The translations under genes were made by a program, and so were the position numbers. From the NCBI GenBank assembly GCA_014238055.1, contig JABABV010000007.1, positions 1 through 35,601 of the forward strand: a stretch of DNA of 35,601 bases. Reading direction: 5' to 3'. Source of the DNA: Mycoplasmatales bacterium (GTDB lineage Bacteria; Bacillota_I; Bacilli_A; Mycoplasmatales; JABABV01). Under the pieces are notes generated by a model. That model was not told the origin of the DNA, searched no databases, and was given only the letters and a program-made list of their open reading frames with translations. Position 1 is the first letter of the stretch; each line of letters opens with the position of its first letter. Positions 2,340-35,601 of this stretch are shown here, piece by piece.

Positions 2340-3299
2340 ATGCAAAATATATCAAAACCTAATGTTGTTGTTATCGGTGGTGGGACTGGACTATCGACTT
2401 TATTATCAGGCCTAAAAGATATCAAAAACATTAATCTTTCAGCAATCGTAACTGTTTTTGATGACGGCTCTTCGACTGGAGTTTTAAGAAAAGATTTTAA
2501 AATCCCAGCAGTTGGTGATCTTAGACAAGTTATTAACGCTTTATCAAACTCTTCAAATAAATCAATTTTGAATGATTTAATGCGCTATCGCTTTCAAAAT
2601 AAAGATAGCTTATTAGATAATCATTCTCTTGGTAATTTGATCATGACAGCTTTAATCGATATTCAAGGCGATTTTAAAGCTGGAATTGAAGCAATTTCTC
2701 AAGCTCTAAACATTACTGGAAAAATAATTCCTGTAACAGATAAATCTATAAACATAAAAGCTTTAACGATTAATAATAATATTATTCATGGTGAAAGTAA
2801 TATAGGTAAAAGTCCCGAACGCCTAAAAAAGATTTTTCACAGTAAATTAATTAATGCTAATCCTGATGCAATACTAGCTATTAATGATGCCGATTATATC
2901 GTTTATGGAATCGGTTCACTTTATACTTCAATTATTTCTAACATCGCTTTGCCAGATATTCGTGAAGTTCTTAGAAGTACGAAAGCAAAGCATATTTATT
3001 TATGCAACATAATGCAACAACCAGGAGAAACGATTGGTTATGATTCACAAGATCACGTCGATGCTATCGAAGAACATTTAGGTAAAAATGTTATTGATCT
3101 CGTTGTTACTAACTCTTTTTCTATTCCTGAAGAAATCTATCAAAAATACGTTGATTCTAATCAACGTATCGTGCCAATTAATTTTACTAATAAAAAAATA
3201 AAAATAATTAGAGCGCCTCTTATTGAGATAACTGAAGATAAAACTATTAGACATAATACGAATTTAATCAAAAAAGCATTTTCTAAAATTTTTATATAA
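2340..3299 (+). CDS. yvcK: gluconeogenesis factor YvcK/GlmR family
   Basis: VVVIGGGTGLSTLLSGLK, VFDDGSSTGVLRKDF, GDLRQ motifs; rapZ-yvcK-whiA synteny. Confidence 0.95.
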   Translation: MQNISKPNVVVIGGGTGLSTLLSGLKDIKNINLSAIVTVFDDGSSTGVLRKDFKIPAVGDLRQVINALSNSSNKSILNDLMRYRFQNKDSLLDNHSLGNLIMTALIDIQGDFKAGIEAISQALNITGKIIPVTDKSINIKALTINNNIIHGESNIGKSPERLKKIFHSKLINANPDAILAINDADYIVYGIGSLYTSIISNIALPDIREVLRSTKAKHIYLCNIMQQPGETIGYDSQDHVDAIEEHLGKNVIDLVVTNSFSIPEEIYQKYVDSNQRIVPINFTNKKIKIIRAPLIEITEDKTIRHNTNLIKKAFSKIFI

Positions 3300-3320
3300 T
3301 TTTAAAATAGAAGGTTAAAT

Positions 3321-10780: not shown

Positions 10781-12232
10781 TTATTCTTTAATTAATTTAC
10801 TATTAGTTTTTTTAACGAATTTACTAAATACAAAATCCATAAAGTATCCAACTATTATAATAGCAGTAAAAATTATTACTGTATATGTTAGCGTTGCATA
10901 TGTTGATGTAAAGATATCAGTTGAAACTGAAAACATTTCATAAATATTATCGATTAAACTAATGATTGGTACAATAATAAAGAATGACGCTCCTATTATA
11001 GCTGATATTTTGAAAAATTTTATTTTTTTAACTTTTACTTTATTAGTGTATCGATTAATAACAGCATATATAAAGACAATCCCTAACATGATTAAAATAA
11101 TTGCTGTTTGTCAATTAGAAACAACATCGATAAAATCAAGCGTTTTACCAAATACAAAATGACCAATTAAGAAACTAAAAACCGTTGCTAAAAAAGATAA
11201 AGTATATAAGAAATATCCGCTACCTGCTGGACTTCCATTAGGATTCTTTTTAATAATTAATTTTTTATATGGGAAGTAATGAGGTGAGTCTACCGCATCA
11301 CTGACCATTCGCATTCCTCCAGTAGTAAATCCATTTAACGATCCTAAAGCAGCAAAGACTACTGAAATATCGATAATTTTTTCAAATCAAACTGGGAAAG
11401 CGTGATGAGAAAAAGAAATAACTGAACCAGTATCTCAATCTTTACTTGCAAAAGAACCAGCTGTTTTAGAAAAAATAGCTACTGAAATTAAAGCGTAAAA
11501 AATAATAATACTAATAACTCCAACGATAACAATTTTTGGTAAATTACGATCAGCATTTTTAACTGATTTTTTAATTGAAAAAACATAATAGAACCCATCG
11601 AAAGCATAGAAGACTGCCGGAAGCGCTAAAATCATTCCTAAAATTCCGTGATTTTTAATTGTTTTTCCAGAAATAATAATATCTGGACTACTAAAATTAG
11701 TAATTGAACTAGTTATTAATCCCGCAACAACTACAACAATTAAAGGAAATAATTTAAAGATTGTTGCAAAGTTTTGTGTGATATGAGGAATTTTAATAAA
11801 TTTAGAATTAATTCCCATAAATCAAGTTAAGTAAAATAATGTTAAAATTAAATTAGCTCACCATGGAGCGTGGTATCCGAAAATAGCTCAAGTAAAATTA
11901 GCACCATAAAATGCTAAAGTTGTATAAATAAATGGAAAATATAAGAAAGTTAGAAATCAAACTAACGTTCTCCCATATCGTTTACTAACGAAAGCATTAG
12001 CTCAAGAAACGATTCCTGAATCAGTTTCTTTCTGAGAACTAATAATCTCTAATAGAGCAATCGCTGCAAATAATACTCCGATCCCTCCAATAACTCACGC
12101 TAATAAAGTGTAAACTCCTGAACCAGTACTATTTATAACACTAGTGTTTTTAAAAAATATTCCTACTCCGACAATTGTTCCAATAACATAAGCTAATGCC
12201 GTTATGAAACCAATATTCTTTTTATTAGACAT
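10781..12232 (-). CDS. APC superfamily amino acid permease
   Basis: 483 aa with TGA=Trp; VIGTIVGVGIFFKN, FAFDGFYY-type motifs, ~12 TM; RBS AAGGAG. Confidence 0.9.
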
Positions 12233-12353: not shown

Positions 12354-12467
12354 TTATGTTAGTTGAGCAGAGCTAAGCATTCGTTTATTTCCAAAAAGAA
12401 CATACAAAAAGTTAATAATTGTAACATTATTATTAATTTCTAAGTTGTTAAAATTAGAATTAAACAT
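12354..12467 (-). CDS. leader peptide ORF 3 (37 aa) MFNSNFNNLEINNNVTIINFLYVLFGNKRMLSSAQLT
   Basis: ATG preceded by GGAGAAAACAA; TATAAT -10 at 12526-12531; followed by terminator then permease. Confidence 0.6.
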   Translation of the reverse strand: MFNSNFNNLEINNNVTIINFLYVLFGNKRMLSSAQLT

Positions 12468-13423: not shown

Positions 13424-13446
13424 TTAAATTTATGTTAATATATATA

Positions 13447-13530
13447 TGCCTTTGCAACAATAACCTTTTAACTTGGTCAGGTCCGGAAGGAAGCAGCCAT
13501 ATAAAGAAGTATTGTGTGCGAAGGTTTTTT
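13447..13530 (+). ncRNA. ffs: signal recognition particle RNA (4.5S type)
   Basis: GGTCAGGTCCGGAAGGAAGCAGCC apical domain; flanks TGCCTTTGCAACA...GTGTGCGAAGG pair; trailing U8. Confidence 0.95.
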
Positions 13531-13569
13531 TTATCTATTTTTTAAATATAATAATAAGGAGGTTTTATT

Positions 13570-21487: not shown

Positions 21488-22615
21488 TTAAAAAGTTCTT
21501 AATGGTAATATCAATTGTTTAAGTCATGGTTTTTCAGTACTAGTAATTAAGGCTGGCTTTAAATTACTGATTAGTTTAATTGAAATAGTTTTTGTATTAA
21601 AAGCACGAACTGCTTCTTTTAAAAATCTTAAATTAAAATTAATATTTATTGCTTTTCCACTAAATTTAAAATCAGTAATGATATCTTCGATCGTTCCGAT
21701 TTCTTTTTGATTATTTTTAACGATAATTTTATCTTTATTGATTTCTAAATTAACACTCGAAATATTGTTAACTGTAAAAATTTCCATCTTATTCATTACG
21801 AAAACTAATTGTTTTGTTTCAATAATTAATTCTGTTTCAAAGTTTTCTGGAATTAAACTAATAACGTTTGGATAATTACCTTGTAAAATTCTAACTTTTA
21901 AAGATAGGGCATTGTAATTGATCACAATAGAGTCAATAGAGATATATAAAATAACAGTTCCTTTATCATCGCTTAAAATTCTAATAATATCTTTAACAAC
22001 TTTAGTTAAAAGACTAAATTTAAATTTAAAATCTAAATTATTGTTTTGTAATAATAAATCGCTATAAGCTAAACGATATGAATCGGTAGCTACTGATTCG
22101 ATTTTTTGATTATTAATATTAAAATTCATAGCATTTAACATAATTCTTTTATTTTCAATATCACTAGCGAAAATAACTTCATTAATATAATTCTTAAGAT
22201 CTTTTAAAGGCATTTTTATTTTATGACCAACATTTTCGATATTAATGTTTGGAAATTCATTATTATCAATTGTATTTAAAGTCATAACTAATTTGTTTGC
22301 TTTAATTATTAATTCATTTTTTTCTTTATTAAAAGTTAGTTCAATGTATTCTTCATTTATTTTTTTTAAGATATTCATGAAATAATTCGGTTTAATTAAA
22401 AAGCTACCAATTTCATCAGATAATAAATTATTTTCATTTATTAAAATAAATTCTTTAATAAACATTGTTCCATTACTTGCAGATAAAATTATTTTTTCTT
22501 TATCGATTGCGAAGTTAACACCTTTGAGGTGGTTGATTATATTATTTGTATCAATTACTTTGTAAACATTGTTCAAAGCATTTAATATTTTTTTTCGTCT
22601 TATTTTTAGTTTCAT
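21488..22615 (-). CDS. dnaN: DNA polymerase III subunit beta
   Basis: 375 aa; sliding clamp features; between dnaA and gyrB. Confidence 0.93.
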
Positions 22616-22666
22616 ATTTTGTTTTTCCTTCTTGTTTGTTTTTTTAAATTATTATTCTATCTATAA

Positions 22667-22794
22667 TTATTATTATTAGGGGTCTGTGTTATGGGGATAA
22701 CTGAAGATTATTATTTTGTAATTATATAATATATATATATATTATATAATTATTTTGATATTTTGCAAGGTTTTTTTTCCACATTTTTTCCACA
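22667..22794. other. oriC: oriC candidate (dnaA-dnaN spacer): DnaA boxes and AT palindrome
   Basis: TTTTCCACA at 22775 and 22786 (11 bp apart), TTATCCCCA on minus at 22692-22700, 34-bp perfect palindrome 22719-22752. Confidence 0.75.
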
Positions 22795-22832
22795 TTAAAC
22801 TAACAAATTTATAGGAGATACTAACATTTTTA

Positions 22833-24194
22833 TTAGTTTAAATTATTTTGTAATTGATCAACAATTTCTTTAATTTTATTTTTACACTTAATATCTCGGT
22901 TTCGACGATTATTAATTTTTTTATAAGAGTTCATGATCGTTGTATGATCACGATTGAAATTTTTAGCAATTTTCTTATAAGTTAAATTTAATAAATCACG
23001 GCAAATAAAGATCGCAATTTGACGAGCTTCAAGGATAACTTTTTGTCGCTGTCTTGAAATTATTTTTTTAACAGTTGTATGATATTTTTTAGCAACGATT
23101 TTTTTAACGTCATCAATTTCAATTATTTTACTTTTATCAGCAATCTCTTGTAAAGCGCTAATAACGTCTTTTTTAGAGATTAAGTCTTTAATAAAGTTAT
23201 TTTGAATCGATCAAAAAATAATTCTTTTAATCGCTCCTTCAATATTTCTAATATTGCTATTAAAATTTTCTGAAATTCATAAAATAGCATCTTCTTCAAT
23301 CGCTGGTAAATTACTATTATTTGCTAATTTTAATTTAATTATACGAGAAGCTTCTTCGATTGATGGATTTTGAATTGAAATCGTTAATCCTGATTGAAAT
23401 CGGGAAATATAACGATCTTCAAAGTCGCCAAGTTCACCAGGTACTTTATCACTAGCGATAACAATTTGTTTATTTTCTTGAATAAAATGGTTAAAAATTT
23501 GAAAAAAGATCTCTTTTGTTTTTTTCATTGTTGAAAAAAACTGAACATCATCTAGTAAAAGAACATCATAATTAAAGTATTTTTCTTTAAAATTTTCAAT
23601 TCCTTGAAAACCAACGTTAAAAGCATTATTCAATTCACCACTAAATTTAGCGCTATCGATATATTTTACTTTTAAGTTCTTATCACGATAATTACTTAAA
23701 CATTTATTTCCAATTGCTTTTAATAGATGAGTCTTTCCAAAGCCTGGTTTACCGTAAATGAATAAAGGATTATAAAGACTTTCTTGACTATCATTAGAAG
23801 AAACTAAAATAGCTGCTTGATACGCTCCGCGATTAAAATTACCATTAACATAGTTAGCAAAAGTAAAACGATCTTTTAAACCAGTATCAGTTGTAAAAAC
23901 ATTTTTCTTGATAATTGCTTCTGATCGATTTGATCATTCTTGTTCTGTTAAAAAGACAATTTTAAAATTACTTTGAGTAACTTCTTTGATTATTTGTTTA
24001 AATTGTTCATCATAAGTCGTCTCAATAATTTGTTTAACAAACTTTGACTTTATTATTATGAAAACAATATTGTTAGTTATTTCTTTGATTTTAATTTTAT
24101 TTTTCAAATAATTATTAAAAAATTCTAATGGAATATTTTCTTTTAATGAAATTTGAAAGTTTTGGTCAATTTTTTTAATATTATTTTTTATCAT
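22833..24194 (-). CDS. dnaA: chromosomal replication initiator DnaA
   Basis: FIYGKPGFGKTHLLKAIGN, DVLLLDDVQFF, NRDHTTIMNSYKKI; 453 aa with TGA=Trp. Confidence 0.98.
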
Positions 24195-24297
24195 AGATAC
24201 CTTCTTAATATAGAAATATTTAATGAATTTACTAAATATAATTATATACTAATACTGATGTGAGTTAAAAACAATTTAAAGAAAGTTGTTAAAGTAG

Positions 24298-24427
24298 TTT
24301 TCCACATTAAAAAACAATTAAAAAGACTATTATTAAAGGAAAATTATTTGTTTTACAATATAGGTTAGTATATTTATTGTGTAAAAAATAAGTAGTTGCG
24401 TAACTTTTATGTTAATTATGGGGAAAA
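24298..24427. other. second DnaA-box region upstream of dnaA
   Basis: TTTTCCACA at 24298-24306; TTTTCCCCA-like on minus at 24419-24427. Confidence 0.55.
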
Positions 24428-24486
24428 ACAATTTATGAATTACTGAAAAAGTCTATTAAAATAAGGTTTTTTAACATTTTTGAATT

Positions 24487-24522
24487 GATTTATAGTATAA
24501 TGATTAAGATTTATAGTATAAT
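24487..24522 (+). repeat. 15-bp direct repeat GATTTATAGTATAAT x2, 21-bp period, promoter-like
   Basis: Identical copies at 24487-24501 and 24508-24522, each with a TATAAT hexamer. Confidence 0.7.
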
Positions 24523-24653
24523 TATTATGTAATGAAAGAATAGTTGTTAAATTTATTCGTTAAATATAATTCGATAATTAATGGTATAATTTAATAATTC
24601 TAAATAACTTTTTTATATAATTCTTGTATAAAACGAAAGGAAGTGTTCTAAAA

Positions 24654-25091
24654 ATGTGACCATTTAGCAAAAAAGATAAATCTCAAAATACAGAAGTAGA
24701 CAATAATAAAAATATCGAAACACCAGTTGAGGATAATAAACCAACACCGAAAGCTGATGTTGAAAAAGCCCCTGTAAAAAAACCAGTTGCAAAAAAAACA
24801 GTTAAAAAACCAGTTGCAAAAAAGAAAACAACAGCGAAAAAGAAATCCGCTCCTAAAAAAGCTACTAGTAAAAAAGTAAAAGAGAAAATTTATGTGGGCG
24901 ATAAAAATAAAATAGTTACTTTACGTCTAAGTCATGATCTTTTATCTAAAGTTAAAAAACATGCATCTGAAAATAAAAAAATGACATTATCACAATTCAC
25001 TAGACATTTATATAATTTAGAACTTGAGAAAATCGAGAATTTAAAAAATAAATTAAATAATAATTTAAATGTTGAACCTGAATTTGAATAA
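24654..25091 (+). CDS. Lys/Pro/Ala-rich (H1-like) protein with C-terminal ribbon-helix-helix domain
   Basis: 145 aa (ATG TGA start region rejoined); KKPVAKKTVKKPVAKKKTTAKKKSAPKKATSKK followed by IVTLRLSHDLLSKVKKHASENKKMTLSQFTRHLYNLEL. Confidence 0.8.
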
Positions 25092-25111
25092 TTCATTAAT
25101 TTACTTTTTAT

Positions 25112-25140
25112 AAAAGATATATTAATTTATATCTTTTTTT
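25112..25140 (+). terminator. rho-independent terminator
   Basis: AAAAGATATA ttaatt TATATCTTTTTTT. Confidence 0.75.
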
Positions 25141-25245
25141 ATTATCTTAACTACAAAAGCAAATAATCAATTTTATTTTAAATAATATATATAATTATAA
25201 TTAGTATTAAAATTTTTAGTAATGAAAGGATTGTTTCGTTAAATT

Positions 25246-26985
25246 ATGAATAATAAAAAATTCACTTTAAAAGAATTAGTCTGATATGGATTTAATTATG
25301 TTTCAAGTATTACTTTTACATTAGTGTTCTATACATTAATTTGAGGTAAATCTGGATCACAAAGTAAAAACGTTGGTATTAATTTAATTTGAATCATGGC
25401 AATAGTTGGTGTTGTTGCAACAGCGTGTGCAATGTGTTTTGCTAAATTAACTAAAGTCCATAAAGTTACTAACGGAGGAGCTTATAGTTATACGAGAACT
25501 CAATTCGGTAAATTTATGGGTTGAGCAATTTTATTTTTACAATATATGAGCTTACCGATTAGTATTGTTTCTCAAATTATTTCGATGGTTAGTGCTAACT
25601 TCGTAAATCCTGATAGTTTTCTTTATGTTGGTGGTTTAAAAAACAATCACTTTAATCTATTTGAAGGTTATTGAGGACATTGATCTTCTTTAATATTAGA
25701 TAGTTTTGGAATCCTTATATATATAATAGCAGCAGCTTTAATTTTTTTAGGATTGAAAAAATTTAAAAAATTAATAAATGGTGTGTTTTATTTAAAGTGA
25801 ATCTTTACGATCGTTCTAGTAATCGGAGTTTCAGTTTTATTCTTTATGAATATATCTTCACCATCAGAAAGTAATAATATCGTTAATTTAGCAAAACATC
25901 ATTCAGCGATTAGTGTTTCTTTATTTGCTAATGTTTTTGCTTCAACTTTCTTTTTCTTTGGAGGAACGGAAACTTATATTACAATTGGAAAAAATGTTGA
26001 AAAGCCAGAAAAAAATATTGCTCGAGCGATATTAATTATTATGTTAATTTCGACAATGTTCTATTTAGTTACAACGATTTTATTTATGGGAGCGTTCTCA
26101 CAACCTTTTAGTTCTAATCCAAATATTCAAGCATTTACGATCTTAGGGATTAAATTAAATGCCCCTTGATTAGAATATATCGGAGTAATTTTTATGCTTT
26201 TAGCAACAATTTCTTTAAAATTTACTGCCGGAATGCAAAATGGTTTATATAGTGGAGCAATTTTAGAGCCGCAAGCTCGCGAAGGTTTTGTTAGTGAAAA
26301 ACTTGGAAAATTAGATAATGATGGAATTGCAATGAAAGCAAGTAAGTTTAATTTATTAATTACTGCTGCTTTTGCAATTATTTGATTATTGATTCCTGAT
26401 TTAATTCAAGGCTTAACTGATAAAAAACCATTTAGTTATTCAGCTATCACTGGAGAAGCTGGTATATTTATGATGTTTTTATATTTAATAGTGGTCTCTA
26501 TTTGTATAAAACTAGCGTGATTGAAGAAAATTCAATTTAAAAAATATGAATTTGCAATGTGAATTCTTTTAATCATATTTTTACTATGACAAGTTTATGC
26601 CTTTTTTGCTGGAGTCTTTGATGGTATTAATGGAACGATCAAACATCTTCCAATATATGTTAAGAATGATGATCAATTAGCAACTTATTTAATTCAATTA
26701 ATTTATTTATTATTAACAGCAATATTATTAATTAGTATTTATTGATTATATTACTTACCAAAATATCGTGCTCGTTTAATAAAAGATAAATCAATTCAAG
26801 CAGAATTAGATTCTGAGTTTGTAATGATCGATGATTGAGCTTTTATTTCTCGCTCAATCGAAGATAAGTTAGATGATTATTTATTACGTGTTGATAAAAT
26901 TGGTAATAATATTGATAAGACTCATCGTAAAGTTGCAAGTCAGCTGAAAAAAATCGTTAATGAAAACGAACCAGAAATTAAGTAA
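25246..26985 (+). CDS. APC superfamily amino acid permease (paralogue A1)
   Basis: 579 aa with many TGA=Trp; multi-TM; strong similarity to the 28834 protein. Confidence 0.9.
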
Positions 26986-27081
26986 AATAAACTAAAAAAT
27001 AATAATTAGATATATTAAATATCGTTTAATGATTAAAAAAGGTTCTTTTTTGTATTAAAAAATAACTTTTTTTTAAATTTA

Positions 27082-27111
27082 TTGACTTTATCTTGTTTTT
27101 GTTGTTATAAT
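27082..27111 (+). promoter_or_regulatory. promoter of leader 1
   Basis: TTGACT-18-TATAAT; ATG begins 9 nt after the -10. Confidence 0.75.
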
Positions 27112-27120
27112 TGTTTCATA

Positions 27121-27240
27121 ATGTTAAAACAAAATCTATGAAACAACCAAATTATGACTTCTTCTTTTAAAGGCACAGCAGTTACGTCTGCTTACGCTTT
27201 AAATATTTTGTCATATTTTTTAAAAGTTTCAAATTGTTAA
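27121..27240 (+). CDS. leader peptide ORF 1 (39 aa) MLKQNLWNNQIMTSSFKGTAVTSAYALNILSYFLKVSNC
   Basis: Near-leaderless ORF behind strong promoter; N-terminus shared with leader 2; followed by terminator. Confidence 0.65.
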
Positions 27241-27284
27241 TTCCAATAAATTAATAAAAATTAATTTATAATAATAAAATTAAA

Positions 27285-27328
27285 AATAAACTTTTGAAAT
27301 AATAGAAAATTCAAAGGTTTATTTTTTT
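27285..27328 (+). terminator. terminator of leader 1 (attenuator candidate)
   Basis: AATAAACTTTTGAA / TTCAAAGGTTTATT 14 bp stem (one G.U) then T-run. Confidence 0.85.
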
Positions 27329-27437
27329 AATTAAATTATCGATTTAACGATAATTTAACATTATACTAAAAGTTAGTTAAATATTATAACTAGCTTCATA
27401 TAACATAAATAATTCTACATGAGGAGTTTGAATTAAA

Positions 27438-28787
27438 ATGATAAATCTAAATGGAAAAGAAGAAGTTTTAACATTAGAATGTGTATTTTACAACGATGTT
27501 AAAAATGATTTTATAGTTAAAAGTAATTTTGCTACAACTCTATTAGTTGATGAAAAAAAACTTTATGTATATATTGATCGCCATCAAACAGGAAACTATT
27601 TCGAATATTACCGTAAATTATTAACTGTTCTAGAAAAGAACAAATATAATTTAAACATTAATGTTGATTCATTTGTAAGTAAAGACTTAAGCCAAGAAGA
27701 TGCTTTTCATTTACTTGCTACATTAGCATTCTATAATAACTACAATGACAAACGCTTAAACAACAAAGAATATCAAGAATTAAATTTTAATTTAGTTACT
27801 AGTTATCCAAAAGCTAAAGAAGTATTTGAACGTTTAGCAATTATTAACTCTAGTGTTAATAAAGTAAGATTTTTACAAGACTTACCGCCAAACATTTTAA
27901 ATTCTGAAGTATTAGCTGATAAAGTAGTTAATGAATTAAAAGGGCACAGTAATTTAAAAATCACTGTTCTTGGAAAACCAGAATTACAAAAATTAGGCAC
28001 AGGTTTATTATTATCTGTTAATGCCGGAAGTAATTTTGATCCTAAAATTGTTGCTATTGAATATCAAGGAAATCCTGATTCAAATGAAAAAGTTGCCTTA
28101 GTTGGTAAAGGGATTACTTTTGATACCGGAGGATATTCAGTTAAGTTACGCGAATTTATGCGTTTAATGAAATTTGATATGTCTGGTGCTGCTGTTACGG
28201 CTGGAGTTATGAATAATTTAGCAACTTTACAACCAAAAATAAATGTTGTTGGAATATTATGTATTACAGATAACAAAATTGGACCTTTAGCAACTGCTCC
28301 AGATTCAATTGAAACATCATATAATGGTTTAACTGTTGAAATTAATAACACTGATGCCGAAGGTCGTTTAGCGATGGCTGATGGAATCACTTACGGAATC
28401 CGTAATTGTAATGCTACTAAAGTTATGACAGTAGCAACTTTAACAGGAGCGATTATTACTGCTCTTGGGAAAGAAATTACTGGAGTATTTTCAACTTGTG
28501 AAACATTTTATAAACAATTCGAAAAAGCTAGCCTACTAAGTCATGAAAAAGTATGACGCTTACCGTTTAACGTTACTTTTAAAGAAGACTTAGAGCATTC
28601 ACAAATGGCCGATATTACTAACCACAACTATAAAAATCATGGTGGTTCAGCCGTTGCTGCGTCATTCTTAAACTTCTTTACCGAAGGATTACCGTTCTTG
28701 CACTTAGACATCGCGGGTACAGCTACTCGTAATGAACGTGGTACAGGAATAATGATAAAAACTTTAACAGAATTATTTTGTTTATAG
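27438..28787 (+). CDS. pepA: leucyl aminopeptidase (M17)
   Basis: GKGITFDTGGYSVK and NTDAEGRLAMADGITYG; 449 aa with TGA=Trp. Confidence 0.95.
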
Positions 28788-28833
28788 ATTATATATTTAT
28801 TGTGTTTATATTTAATTAAAAAAGGAGAAAAAA

Positions 28834-30561
28834 ATGAGTTCACAAAAATTTACACTTAGAGAGTTAGTTTGATACGGATTCAACTACATGGTTGGAGTTA
28901 CGTTTACAGCTGTTTTTTATTCACTCGTATGAGGATCTAAAGACGCTATTGGAATTAACTTACTTTGAGTTATGGCTCTTGGTGGTCTTGTGGCTACTGG
29001 TTGTGCGATGTGTTTTGCTAAATTAAGTAAAATTCATAACGCCGACAACGGAGCAGCTTATATTTATACGCGTACACAATTAGGGAAATTCATGGGATGA
29101 GTAATTTCATTCTTACAATATATGTGTTTACCTATCATTGTAGTTTCTCAAATCATGTCAATGGTTAGAATTAATTTTAATTCACCAGGTACTTTCTTAT
29201 TTCTAGGAGACTATTTCGGTAATTGAACTGGACTAGCTTTAGATCTTTTTGGAATCACTATTTATATGATTGCTTCAATGGTTATCTTTTTAGGAATTAA
29301 AAAATTCAAAAAATTCTTAAAAATGGCAATTTATATTAAATGAAGTTCAACAATATTATTAATTCTTGGAGTACTAGTTTTATTCTTTATGAATATCTTT
29401 AGTTCAACAGAAGGTAATAACTTAGTAAATCTTGCAAGAGATCATTCAACATTATCGGTGACTTCATTTGCAACAGCATTTGCTTCAACATTTTTCTTTT
29501 ATGCTGGATTCGAAACTTATATAACAGTTGGGAAAAACGTTGAAAAACCAGAAAAAAATATTGCTCGTTCAATTATATATGTAATGTTAATTACGACAGT
29601 ATTTTACTTATTTACAACATTTATATTCATGGGAGCTTTCTCAGAAGCATTTAATAAGAATCCAAATATTCAAGTATTTTCATTCTTAGGTAATGATTGA
29701 AATATGAAAACTATTGGATATGTCGGAGCATTTATTATGCTATTTTGTACAATGGCTCTTAAATTACAAGCCGGAATGCAAAATGCTTTATTCAGTGGAG
29801 CTATTTTAGAACCACAAGCTCGTGAAGGATTTATTCCAGATCAGCTTGGTGAATTAGATGAAGAAAATATCGCTAGAAAAGCTAACGTAGTTAACTTAAT
29901 AGTTACTGGTGTATTTGCTTTAATTTGATTAATTTTCCCAGATATCATCACAGGAGTAACTGGAAAACCAGCGTTTGATTATGCTGCGATTACTGGTCAA
30001 ATTGGTATTTTTGAAATGATCCTTTATAGTGTTATCGTTGTTATTTGTTTAAAACTTGCGTTTGAAAAGAAAATGCAATCTGGTTTATTTCAAGTAATAT
30101 TTTGAATGTTTTTATTTGCATTCTTAATGTGACAAGTCTATGAATTCTTCGCAGGAGTGTTTAATGGAATTAACGGAACATTAAATCACTTAGATGCATA
30201 TGATGGACAACAGTCAACAACATACTTTATTGAATTAGGATACTTTATTTTAATTATAGCTACTGCTATATGTAGTTACATGTTCTACTACTTACCAAAA
30301 TATCGTGCCCGTTTAGCAAAAGATCCTTCAATTCAAGTTAAACTTGATGCTGAATTCACAATGGTAGATGACTGAGCTTTAGTATCTCGTGAAATCGAAA
30401 ACTATATCGATGAATACGTTGCTCGTTCTAAAAAAATTGGTCTAAAACCAGATTTCGCTTACCGTGAAACTGCTAATAAAATTAAAGATACAATTATTAA
30501 TTCTGAACCAGACATCGAATACGCGTCTCGTGCTAAAAAAACCCTTTTAGAAAAAGAATAA
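28834..30561 (+). CDS. APC superfamily amino acid permease (paralogue A2)
   Basis: 575 aa with TGA=Trp; RBS AAAGGAG; paralogue of the 25246 protein. Confidence 0.9.
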
Positions 30562-30570
30562 TTATCAAAC

Positions 30571-30604
30571 AAAAAAACCACTAATTAATTTAGTGGTTTT
30601 TTTA
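30571..30604 (+). terminator. rho-independent terminator
   Basis: AAAAAAACCACTAA ttaa TTTAGTGGTTTTTTT. Confidence 0.85.
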
Positions 30605-30630
30605 TATTGATTTTTTAATTAAACTAAATA

Positions 30631-31800
30631 TTAAAAATCATATACGTATACATTTTTTCAAGTATAGTTAAATGCTTCTAATGATAGTTTAGTTTTATCA
30701 CGATAAACTTCTAAATTCATAGAATGATTTTTTCAATCTCCAGAAGTATGGCGAACCCGAAAAGAAATTTCAATAATTCTTCTAAGGATATTTGGCCCTT
30801 TTTCTATAGCTGGGATAAAAATTTTATCAAAACTATTGATTTTAAAATCAGCATTACTTGGAAATCCGTTTTTATTTAAATAGTTTCTGATTTGATAGTC
30901 TTGACTATGACTGTTAGGGCCGTTGGGATCTTTTTGAAAAGACATTCAATTACTGCTCAAGAATTGGTTTATGTTATTAAGTCCATCACTAATTTCTTTA
31001 TTTAATAATGTATTATATTTAGCAACCGATTGCAATTGAACTATTTTAGTAAATTTTCAAGATTTTATGTTATAAGTTGATCCTTGATAATAAGAAATCA
31101 TTGCTTTAATAGGATCGGAATCATAAGCACCATTTTTACCTTTTTTAGAAATAATAGCTGTTATTGTTTGATCATTATTGTTAGTAGTTGGTTCTCCCGC
31201 CATTCCTGCATAATCATCACCAGCACCAACGCCACCATAGATATCAAATTCAGCTTGATCAGTTGTGATTCATTTTGTTTGTGATTCATTTCCATAAGTT
31301 CATCTTAAAGCATTAACAACATCAGAATCACGAACTCTTTTAATTAAATCTTTTGGTAATACTGAAGTTGCTAAATCACGAAAATGTTCTCAATTTGCTT
31401 CTTCAGGTGTAGTAGGTTGTCCGTAGCATTTTCAATCATCAAGATTATAATTAGTATTTATAACGTAAGTAATGCGAAATTTTGCTAATGCAGAATTACT
31501 TTTTCTAATGATCGTAGCAGTAATAGTTAAATTATCAGTTTCTACTGCTGGTTGATCTTGAAATTCAAAATCACTTTTATCGATATTGTTTCATGCAGGT
31601 GGTTGAGTAGCTTTAATGATATCTTCAAAACTAGCTCGCAAAGCATCTTTTTTAAAAACATCTCAAGAACCTTTTTTGGGGTTTGTATTATGATGGTTGC
31701 AACTAACTAGTACACTAAATGTAGATAAAGTTATAGCAGTTATAGATGTTGTAAAAAATATTAATTTAAAAATTTTTTTAAATTTCTTTTTATTATTCAT
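30631..31800 (-). CDS. lipoprotein with possible internal duplication
   Basis: 389 aa with TGA=Trp; signal peptide and lipobox VLVSC. Confidence 0.85.
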
Positions 31801-31949
31801 AAATAAAACACATCCTTTATTGATTAAACCTTAATTTTATTTTGTATCATTATTTTATTAGTCATCTTTATATTAATATTTTAACATCTTTTATTTTATG
31901 ATAATTTTATATTTATATATTACGTCTTACTATATTTCAATGAAATTAA

Positions 31950-31979
31950 TTGACATATTATAGTTAACACTGCTATAAT
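31950..31979 (+). promoter_or_regulatory. promoter of leader 2
   Basis: TTGACA-18-TATAAT with TGC extended -10; ATG 9 nt after the -10. Confidence 0.8.
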
Positions 31980-31988
31980 TAGGTCATA

Positions 31989-32099
31989 ATGTTAAAGAAA
32001 AATACTTGAAACAACTCAAATCAAAACTTTAAAGATGCTTCTAATAGCGCCTCTTTAAACTTTTTCTATCTTAATTTGGGTTTCTTTTTAAATAAATAA
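31989..32099 (+). CDS. leader peptide ORF 2 (36 aa) MLKKNTWNNSNQNFKDASNSASLNFFYLNLGFFLNK
   Basis: Same promoter spacing and N-terminal peptide as leader 1; followed by terminator. Confidence 0.65.
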
Positions 32100-32140
32100 T
32101 ATAGCTAATTTTAAATAATTAGTAATTTATAAAAAATAAA

Positions 32141-32183
32141 AAAAACAAACTCAAAATATTAAAAATTTGAGTTTGTTTTTTTA
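32141..32183 (+). terminator. terminator of leader 2 (attenuator candidate)
   Basis: AAAAACAAACTCAAA / TTTGAGTTTGTTTTT 15 bp stem and T-tract. Confidence 0.9.
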
Positions 32184-32255
32184 TTTAATTTAGCATCATA
32201 ACTATCGAGATTATTAAAGCATATTAAAATAATAATTTTAAAAAGAGGTAATAAA

Positions 32256-33851
32256 ATGGATCAAACAGAATTTGTAAACATAGAGACGCCAACAGTCACC
32301 GGTAAAAAAGATAAAATAGTCGAAACGAACTCTAAAAAAAATAAATATGGACTACCAACTGCAGTTTCACTAGTAGTTGGAATAATGATCGGAAGCGGAA
32401 TATTTTTAAAGAATAAAGATGTTATCGAAAATACTCATTCAGTAGCATTGTCATTGTTTTCATGGATCTTGGGTGGGATTGGTGTTTTATGTGCCGCTCT
32501 TGCCCTTATCGAAATAATCTCTGTTAAAACTAAAGATAACAATGATGGGATTATTAGTTGAGCTTCAGCTATGGTAGGTCGTAAATTTAGTAATATTGTA
32601 GCTTGGTTCTTTTTAATAATATATGTGCCAATAATTTATGCAACATTAGCGTGTTACGCCGCTAACTTTACAGCTAAATCTTTCCATTATGGAGAACATA
32701 ATTGGATCTTTCAATTCGGTTTATCAGTTATATTCTTTAGTTATTTCGTAATCGTAAATGCATTATGAAATAAACCAGGCAGATTATTTCAATTTTGATT
32801 AACTGTTTGTAAATTAATTCCTTTGTTTGTAATTATTCTAGTAGGACTTTTATCATTACATTCAGCTAAACATATCTTTGATCCAGTAACTAATGACACA
32901 GGCCATCCTTTAAAAGCTAATTATGGTGGGATCTTATTAGCTTTACCAGGAATTTTATTTGCTTTTGATGGTTTCTATTATGTCGCTAATACACGTCGCG
33001 ATATGAAGAATCCTAAAAAAACTTTACCAAGAGCAATCATTATCGGTATTACATTTGCGGCATTATTTTATGCTTTATTTTCAATTGCTATTTTTAGTAT
33101 TAACGGTTTAGAGCATCGTAATATCGCTCATGGTGCTGGTTCAGCTGACCATTATGCTGATTTAACGTTCGCTTCATGGTTTGCTAAATTTATTAATTAT
33201 ACAGTTATCTTAGCAACACTAGTTGGTCTTAACGGTTATACGATCGTTGGTTCAAGAATCATTAAAAGTTGTAGTGCTCGCTTCGACTTAAAATGAAATA
33301 AAGTTGTTCAAAAAGAAACTAAAAGCGGAGCTCCTTTAGGAGCTGGAATATTTGGATATATTAGTGGGATGATATTTTTAGTAGGAGCATTATTAATCGG
33401 AATGGTTTATGCTAAAGCTAAAGGTGATTATGCAACTGATGGATTTGTTAAGATTATTGATTTCTTATCAAATTGAGAAACGATAATAATGTTATTTATG
33501 ATTTCAGTAGTATTTTTATTTGGAATTATTAATCGTTTCAAAAACCGTGTTGGGGTTGAAAAGAAATGATATTTCATTCCAACAGCAGTCGTAGCTATTT
33601 TATTTTTCGTAATCGTACCTACTTCAAATATCGTTATGCGAGCAATTTGAGCTTGAGGTCCAGATAACGCCACTGATCATGCAAAAGCACTCCAAAATCA
33701 AATCTTAATGTATATTTTATTCGGTTTCTTATTGTTTACGATGATTGGAATGTGAATTAAAAATCATCCTAACTTTATCGACGATAAAAACAAAAAGGAA
33801 ATTAAAGTTTTAGAAGATAAAAATAAAAAAAACATTAATAAGAAAACATAG
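32256..33851 (+). CDS. APC superfamily amino acid permease (paralogue B1)
   Basis: GLPTAVSLVVGIMIGSGIFLKN, LLALPGILFAFDGFYYVANTRRDMKNP; TGA and TGG Trp codons. Confidence 0.9.
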
Positions 33852-33880
33852 TTTTCAAAAAATAAAAAATGAGGTTTAAA

Positions 33881-35425
33881 ATGAAGACAGATAATAAAGA
33901 TAAAATTGAAATCGCCTCCAACACGAGTGGTGGGGTTTTAATTGATGAATCTAAAAATAAAAAATACGGTCTATTAACGGCAATATCTTTAGTAGTAGGA
34001 ATAATTATTGGGGGAGGAATCTTTCTAAAGAATGCTGGAGTTATTGCTCAAACACAATCAGTTATGTGAACTTTCATCGCTTGAATTGTTGGGGGAGTTG
34101 CAATTACTTGCGCCGCTCTTGCTTTTATGGAAATTATTTCTTCAGAAAAAGAAGGCAAAAATAATGGAATTGTTGGTTGAGCCGATAAAATGGTTGGTAA
34201 AAAATTTGGAAGTTTATTTTCATGATTTTTTCTAGTTATTTATGTAAGCGCAATTTATACGACGCTAGCATATTATGCAGCTACGTTTACAACTTCAGCT
34301 TTCGGAATGGAAAATCCCGCTTGATACGTCCACTTTCTAATAGCGGGAGGATTCTTAAGTTACTTCTTATTAGTTAATGGATTGTTTAATAAACCGGGAC
34401 AAATATTTCAATTATTTTTAACGATTTTCAAATTAATTCCTTTAATCATGATTATCTTATTTGGGATCTTTGGAAAATCTAGTTTTGATATTTTTGATTC
34501 AATTACGAATAATGGAAAGCCAATGGCTTCCAAAGGATTTTCGGGAATGATCTTAGCACTTCCAGGAGTTCTGTTTGCTTTTGATGGTTTCTATTACGTT
34601 GCTAACGCTAAAGGTGATATTAAAGATGCTGATCGTAATTTACCTAAAGCAATCTTAATTGGGATTTTATTTACAGCAATATTTTATGCTTTAATATCAC
34701 TAGCAGTATTTAGTATTAGTGATCCATCTACTAGAGATTTAGCTAATGGAGGAGGAACAGCTGACGCTTTTGCGAAAGCAACATTTTCACCATGATTTTC
34801 TAAATTTATTAGTTATACGATTATTATTGCAACTTTAGTTGGTCTTAACGGTTATACGATCGTAGGAACACGTTTAATTAAAACGTGTAGTAAACGTTTT
34901 AAAATACCGGGAATTAAATTATTACAAATTGATTCTAAAAACGGAGCTGCTCTAGGAGCTAGTATTTATGCTTTAATTTTATCGTTAATTTATTTAGCGA
35001 TCTCGGCTTTGATCGGAATTACAGTTTATGCTCATTTCTTACATAATAAAGATAGTTCTGCTTCGATGATTACGAATAGATCAGCTGGATTTGGTGAAGT
35101 TATTAACTTTATCTCTAATTGACAAACAGTAATTGTTTTAATTATGATTTCAATTTTATTCTTTTTTGGAATCGTAAATCGTTTCACTAAAAAAGTTGAT
35201 GTTAAAAAACAATGATATTTTTTACCAACAGCGATCATTTCGATTTTATTTTTCTTAGCGGTACCGATTTATTCAATAATACAAACTTCAATCGATGGTT
35301 GAGGTAAAGCTAATGATGGTGATTCGCGAACTTTAATTTATATCTTAATTGGGATAGTTGCTATCTTGTTAATGGGATTATTATTAAAGACGAAAAAAAC
35401 ACCAGAAAAACTAATCACTGAATAA
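33881..35425 (+). CDS. APC superfamily amino acid permease (paralogue B2)
   Basis: 514 aa with TGA=Trp; GAGG RBS before ATG at 33881; paralogue of the 32256 protein. Confidence 0.9.
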
Positions 35426-35436
35426 TATTAATTTTT

Positions 35437-35470
35437 AAAAAATCAACTTTTAATGTAAGTTGATTTTTTA
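35437..35470 (+). terminator. rho-independent terminator
   Basis: AAAAAATCAACTT ttaatgt AAGTTGATTTTTT. Confidence 0.85.
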
Positions 35471-35555
35471 TTTAAATTGTTGTTGTTGTATAATATTAAT
35501 ATAAGGAGAAATGATAATATAGTTAATTACTTTATCGACAATAAGGAGTCAATAA

Positions 35556-35601
35556 AATGTTAAATAAAAAATTTATAAAACTTTTAAGTATAACTTTGAC
35601 G
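35556..35601 (+). CDS. start of a CDS cut by the window edge (signal-peptide-like N-terminus MLNKKFIKLLSITLT)
   Basis: AAGGAG RBS then ATG, open to end. Confidence 0.5.

Follow-up and report, generated by a model that had tools for sequence, protein, structure and literature searches.

In Escherichia coli, the trpL and hisL leaders combine a short open reading frame (ORF) with mutually exclusive RNA pairings 1:2, 2:3 and 3:4 and a terminator ahead of the structural genes, and their early codons overlap segment 1; the leaders described here share this plan, with 1:2 as a predicted pairing. In trp attenuation, the antiterminator (2:3) has to form first. Unlike trpL and hisL, the present leaders have no control-codon run, precede genes for uptake and peptide breakdown instead of biosynthesis, start their ORF at the 5′ end of the transcript, hold segment 2 within the end of the ORF instead of after it, and carry an AU-rich terminator; they also belong to a different phylum. 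Leader peptides were long known from Proteobacteria and Actinobacteria only, until regular examples were put forward for bacilli (PMC2965389). The attenuators of ilv-leu in Staphylococcus aureus, whose leader peptide is backed by mutations (PMC5794164), and of hisZ/hisS in bacilli (PMC2965389) likewise join a leader peptide to a terminator in low-GC Gram-positive relatives, but unlike the present leaders they show clear runs of the amino acid that fits the target (Leu-rich and His, respectively). The trpL/rnTrpL attenuator of Sinorhizobium meliloti resembles the present leaders in its leaderless ORF, with a transcript starting at the ATG, and differs in serving Trp biosynthesis, in encoding a 14-aa peptide with roles in trans, and in its alphaproteobacterial host (PMC7298713). 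T-box leaders also provide amino-acid-responsive antitermination, but through a tRNA-binding RNA for which a leader ORF is not needed, and a T-box survey counted only two such elements in Mollicutes.

Few regulators are known in Mollicutes, and an average of 18% of the mRNAs in mollicutes is reported to be leaderless (PMC4014445). Bacillus subtilis is reported to be mostly uncoupled in transcription and translation, and expressomes have been seen in cells of Mycoplasma pneumoniae (PMC7858274). Searches of the open literature (most subscription journals lay outside this scope) turned up no account of ribosome-mediated attenuation from Mollicutes; a general survey of attenuation makes no mention of Mollicutes or Mycoplasma, and attenuation is not mentioned in the Mollicutes transcriptome papers searched. 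The principle is known, but its setting here, with leaders that start at the transcript end and occur in at least three copies in a member of the Mollicutes, seems to be undescribed.

The window, i.e., the whole 35,601-nt stretch of DNA analyzed, is contig C142 of an 845-kb genome in 164 contigs. The organism is a wall-less bacterium of the class Mollicutes with a small genome, and among the genomes compared its genus and family contain only this one. TGA is read as Trp, as indicated by a tRNA with anticodon TCA (labelled SeC by ARAGORN) and by 2268 in-frame TGA codons vs. 107 TGG. Our main reading, to which we assign a probability of about 0.75, is that leader 2 is a ribosome-mediated transcription attenuator of the permease pair downstream and that the genome has at least three leaders of this kind, leader 2 included. 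The architecture is well supported by sequence and computation, and from it we infer the function.

Leader 2 begins with a forward-strand promoter at 31950–31979 (TTGACA-18-TATAAT with an extended −10, TG; TGCTATAAT), with the −35 box at 31950–31955 and the −10 box at 31974–31979. In a scan for sigma-70-type sites over 13.6 kb (22000–35601), it was the sole 12/12 match among 88 promoter-like sites. The ATG of leader ORF 2 (31989–32099, forward strand; 36 codons, MLKKNTWNNSNQNFKDASNSASLNFFYLNLGFFLNK, W7 encoded by TGA) lies 9 nt past the −10 box, and the spacing predicts a transcription start near 31986, 3 nt 5′ of the ATG, so that the 5′ untranslated region is at most a few bases long. The ORF is leaderless or nearly so, no Shine–Dalgarno (SD) sequence precedes its ATG, and its length was matched in 2.9% of dinucleotide shuffles. 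An intrinsic terminator stands between the ORF and the first permease gene, B1. Its 5′ arm (segment 3, 32141–32155) and 3′ arm (32166–32180; segment 4, 32166–32182 with the U run) form a contiguous stem that we re-read as 15 bp, the length previously given, in a hairpin of about −16 kcal/mol; the folding energy of the whole leader is 5.2 SD lower than that of dinucleotide shuffles. Permease B1 (32256–33851, forward strand) has an SD sequence of its own, AGAGG, and belongs to the APC superfamily, L-type-like (Pfam PF13520, 2.9e-54; TIGR00911, 1.4e-28), with LAT-type and bacterial APC transporters as its relatives in the PDB. It is followed by a second APC permease, B2 (33869–35425, forward strand), which is 48% identical to it, and a contig scan with B1 returned two distant relatives only.

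A similar arrangement stands upstream in the window. The leader 1 promoter (27082–27111, forward strand; TTGACT-18-TATAAT, extended −10) is one of two sites scoring 11/12 in the same scan and is followed on that strand by leader ORF 1 (27121–27240; 39 codons, MLKQNLWNNQIMTSSFKGTAVTSAYALNILSYFLKVSNC) and a terminator with arms at 27285–27298 and 27310–27323 and then a U run. Its target is an M17 leucyl aminopeptidase gene (27438–28787, forward strand; Pfam PF00883, 3.1e-99), downstream of which profile searches identified an APC permease (28834–30561, forward strand); a 389-aa minus-strand ORF with no Pfam or NCBIfam match (30631–31800) separates these genes from leader 2. The sequence-only reading had likened the two leaders in promoter geometry and opening peptide, and this likeness extends through the first nine codons: from the −35 box to codon 9, 47 of 66 bases are identical, vs. 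42 of 103 beyond it. Judged from these identities, leaders 1 and 2 have a promoter-plus-start module in common and diverged after codon 9, and their antiterminator and terminator sequences are unlike each other. The pattern search proposed at the outset, run for promoter plus MLKxNxWNN across 298 genomes of the order, gave two matches in the source genome (leaders 1 and 2) and no further ones in the remaining 297.

Leader 3 was found by examining the DNA upstream of every APC permease in the source genome. It lies on contig C164 (G000:C164; L142) at 3096–3173, with TTGACA-17-TAATAT-9-ATG. Its ORF has 25 codons (MKSLLIKRNRKSTHSVTTSMIFCFK), its terminator is predicted at −21 kcal/mol, and the APC permease that it precedes lies at 3311. 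The peptide (MKSLLIKRNRK...) is unrelated to those of leaders 1 and 2, and leader 3 repeats their plan with other sequences.

In all three leaders, the antiterminator 2:3 and the terminator 3:4 are mutually exclusive, and the antiterminator overlaps the ORF: its 5′ strand is the ORF end (last ∼25 nt), at nt 98–110 of 120 in leader 1, 86–102 of 111 in leader 2, and 63–73 of 78 in leader 3. Segment 2 of leader 2 (ATTTGGGTTTCTTTTT, 32074–32089, forward strand) lies at the 3′ end of leader ORF 2. Within it, TTTGGGTTT (32075–32083) pairs with AAACTCAAA (32147–32155) at 9/9 positions with one G·U, as had been proposed, and that proposal understated the duplex, since five more U–A pairs (32085–32089 with 32141–32145) follow a single C·C mismatch; the duplex of segment 2 with the 5′ arm has −9.1 kcal/mol. 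Segment 2 of leader 1 (TTTTAAAAGTTTC, 27218–27230, forward strand) pairs in the same way with the 5′ arm of its terminator. Against dinucleotide-shuffled ORFs, the 2:3 duplex had p = 0.056, 0.002, and 0.031 for leaders 1, 2, and 3, respectively, with a combined p of 3.2e-4 (4.2e-4 by codon permutation), and the leader ORFs are longer than in shuffles (combined p = 0.007). In the predicted folds of all three leaders, segments 2 and 3 are separated by a small hairpin (approximately 32101–32131, forward strand, in leader 2).

The pairing of segments 1 and 2 is less distinctive. Segment 1 of leader 2 (32008–32021, forward strand; codons 7–11) is predicted to pair with segment 2 (32074–32084 in this pairing) in the minimum free energy structure when the ribosome is absent. 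All coordinates earlier assigned to leader 2 were correct when the sequence was re-read, those of these two segments included; the 1:2 pairing is AU-rich, and its complementarity is not beyond chance when taken alone (p = 0.37 for leader 2, 0.13 for leader 1, and 0.36 for leader 3). What holds of the paralogous attenuator with mutually exclusive pairings posited by the sequence-only reading is an attenuator-type leader ahead of the permease pair in which 2:3 and 3:4 exclude each other, repeated on the same plan in leader 3; 1:2 lacks significance of its own.

Folding was staged with a 28-nt ribosome footprint and energies calculated at 37°C for RNA that is AU-rich. Before the 3′ arm of the terminator exists, the ORF end holds the 5′ arm with P ∼0.8, 0.8, and 0.6 in leaders 1, 2, and 3 for stalls across most of the ORF, and this probability falls to ∼0 with the ribosome on the last codons. 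Without a ribosome and with transcription modeled to just beyond segment 2, this segment pairs with the opening 45 nt of the ORF (1:2) with P = 0.51, 0.72, and 0.44, and this pairing is lost once the A-site is at codon 7 or later (P = 0 in leader 2). For the full-length RNA at equilibrium the terminator is preferred at every ribosome position (P ∼0.94), so the switch must be kinetic, with the antiterminator forming first. In these models, the three states correspond to those of classical (trp-like) attenuation.

Attenuation by a ribosome that senses amino-acid supply seems to be the best reading of the leaders. Because the RNA is predicted to start only a few bases from the leader AUG, a ribosome could load as soon as the RNA emerges. 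Fast reading to the end of the ORF would cover segment 2, allow the terminator 3:4 to form, and turn the permeases off. When aminoacyl-tRNA is short, a halt in the early or middle codons would leave segment 1 covered or unpaired, and segment 2 could capture segment 3 before segment 4 is made, so that RNA polymerase would read into the permease genes; the small hairpin would help the antiterminator to form first by bringing segments 2 and 3 together. With no ribosome, 1:2 would tend to form first and termination would be favored. An attenuator of this kind would work through translation of the leader and would answer amino-acid shortage.

Within the 711 kb that we surveyed, the three leaderless leaders are confined to amino-acid uptake genes. 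Free upstream DNA of 130 nt or more precedes 216 genes there, and a short ORF of any kind plus a terminator was present in 13 cases. Six of the 216 genes encode an amino-acid permease or peptidase, and all three leaderless, strong-promoter leaders with a terminator fall on those six (hypergeometric p = 1.2e-5, an optimistic value because the uptake-gene set was compiled once two of the three leaders had been seen). The other candidates are weak, consisting of short SD-led or poorly promoted ORFs and one tRNA-like hairpin, and their terminators may belong to the preceding gene. In ∼135 upstream regions of permease and aminopeptidase genes from related genomes we found no convincing comparable leader and hence no phylogenetic conservation of the elements; the three leaders cannot be aligned with one another, and all come from one genome.

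Other explanations must be weighed against attenuation by a translating ribosome. These could be real premature terminators whose readthrough is set by an RNA-binding protein, by temperature, or at a fixed partial level, with the ORF incidental or minor. The terminators are indeed strong, translation of the leader ORFs is putative, and the antiterminator probability just before the 3′ arm is made is similar in leaders 1 and 2 whether the ribosome is absent or stalled. Against this explanation, three leaders join an ATG, always 9 nt from the −10 box, to an ORF end that is itself the antiterminator strand, and the ORFs exceed shuffles in length; we consider it unlikely, though it is the most probable of the alternatives. 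We regard as improbable that the leaders sense a translation inhibitor or their own nascent peptide, as in erm- or ABC-F-type regulation, with MLKxNxWNN as an arrest motif: the first nine codons are common to leaders 1 and 2 despite later divergence, as an arrest motif would be, but leader 3 follows the same plan with an unrelated peptide, and the leaders precede genes for permeases and an aminopeptidase instead of resistance genes.

Somewhat less probable again is that the short transcript or peptide is itself the product, acting as a small protein or trans-acting RNA like rnTrpL/peTrpL of S. meliloti. A leaderless short mRNA that ends at a terminator does resemble rnTrpL (PMC7298713), but the peptides of leaders 1 and 2 show no conservation past codon 9, that of leader 3 differs throughout, and such a role would in any case be compatible with attenuation. 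Very improbable, finally, is a diverged T-box or amino-acid riboswitch. A T-box-like element does occur once in the genome, on contig C87 ahead of a PheS-like gene, and is its only match to the T-box model RF00230, with none at the leaders. Segment 2, however, sits within an ORF, and a search with 4227 Rfam families gave no match in 26900–32400 (leaders 1 and 2) at E up to 1. Leader 3 had no Rfam match either with the E limit set at 0.1, and T-box and Rfam leader-family identities were rejected on this basis.

If ribosome-mediated attenuation is correct, its signal is not obvious from the peptides. None of leaders 1–3 has a control-codon run in its codon composition for an amino acid handled by its target. 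Asn is enriched in leader 2 (7/25, p = 0.0028, uncorrected for the 20 amino acids compared) and in the weak candidate leader 4 described below, but not in leaders 1 or 3. Leaders 1 and 2 have one Trp codon each, and their codons 7–9 are Trp-Asn-Asn. Codons 8–10 of leader 3 are Arg-Asn-Arg (CGC AAC CGC), in which AAC is flanked by two copies of CGC, a codon that the genome uses rarely (0.17 relative to the commonest Arg codon). Composition does not establish sensing of any single codon (Trp, Asn, or Arg). A few early codons may set the signal, namely W7-N8-N9 (leaders 1 and 2) and R8-N9-R10 (leader 3); alternatively, a ribosome stalled anywhere upstream of segment 2, or slowed ahead of the last ten codons, may be enough. 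Going by their predicted products, the target genes, which encode an aminopeptidase and relatives of LAT-type transporters, fit amino-acid supply as that signal. Lacking control-codon runs, the leaders would be blunt, general sensors.

A broader version of this idea, which we offer tentatively and think rather doubtful, is that the genome has a small regulon of leaderless-ORF attenuators at amino-acid uptake genes without any single control codon, in which any slowing before the last ten codons would open the gene and the leader would serve as a general meter of amino-acid supply. That version would require tight coupling of transcription and translation and initiation at a bare 5′ AUG. If attenuation operates here as proposed, a minimal cell would tune amino-acid import without a regulatory protein, with the ribosome as sensor, and the leaders would allow the coupling of transcription to translation to be tested genetically in a Firmicutes-derived lineage.

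A possible fourth leader precedes another APC permease gene in the window (10781–12232). It is an SD-led, Asn-rich ORF of 37 codons (12354–12467, minus strand; MFNSNFNNLEINNNVTIINFLYVLFGNKRMLSSAQLT, nine Asn) followed by a terminator-like hairpin (12294–12265, minus strand), and it is a weak candidate only, because no antiterminator was found in the ORF (p = 0.55 for a duplex with the terminator arm). The SD region ACAAGGAGAAAAC occurs twice, 5′ of this small ORF (12467–12354) and 5′ of the permease gene itself. Structured RNAs recovered alongside include a bacterial small SRP RNA at 13441–13537 of the window (71 bits) and, elsewhere in the genome, a tmRNA (L120:18939–19346) whose tag is GNSKKETVPTYMLNNASSSMMMSAMA according to ARAGORN. 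The T-box-like element upstream of the PheS-like gene (L128:7183–7368; C87:44183–44368) scored 49 bits (E = 2.9e-10), under the gathering score, and from its position a T-box, too, seems to be in use in this organism.
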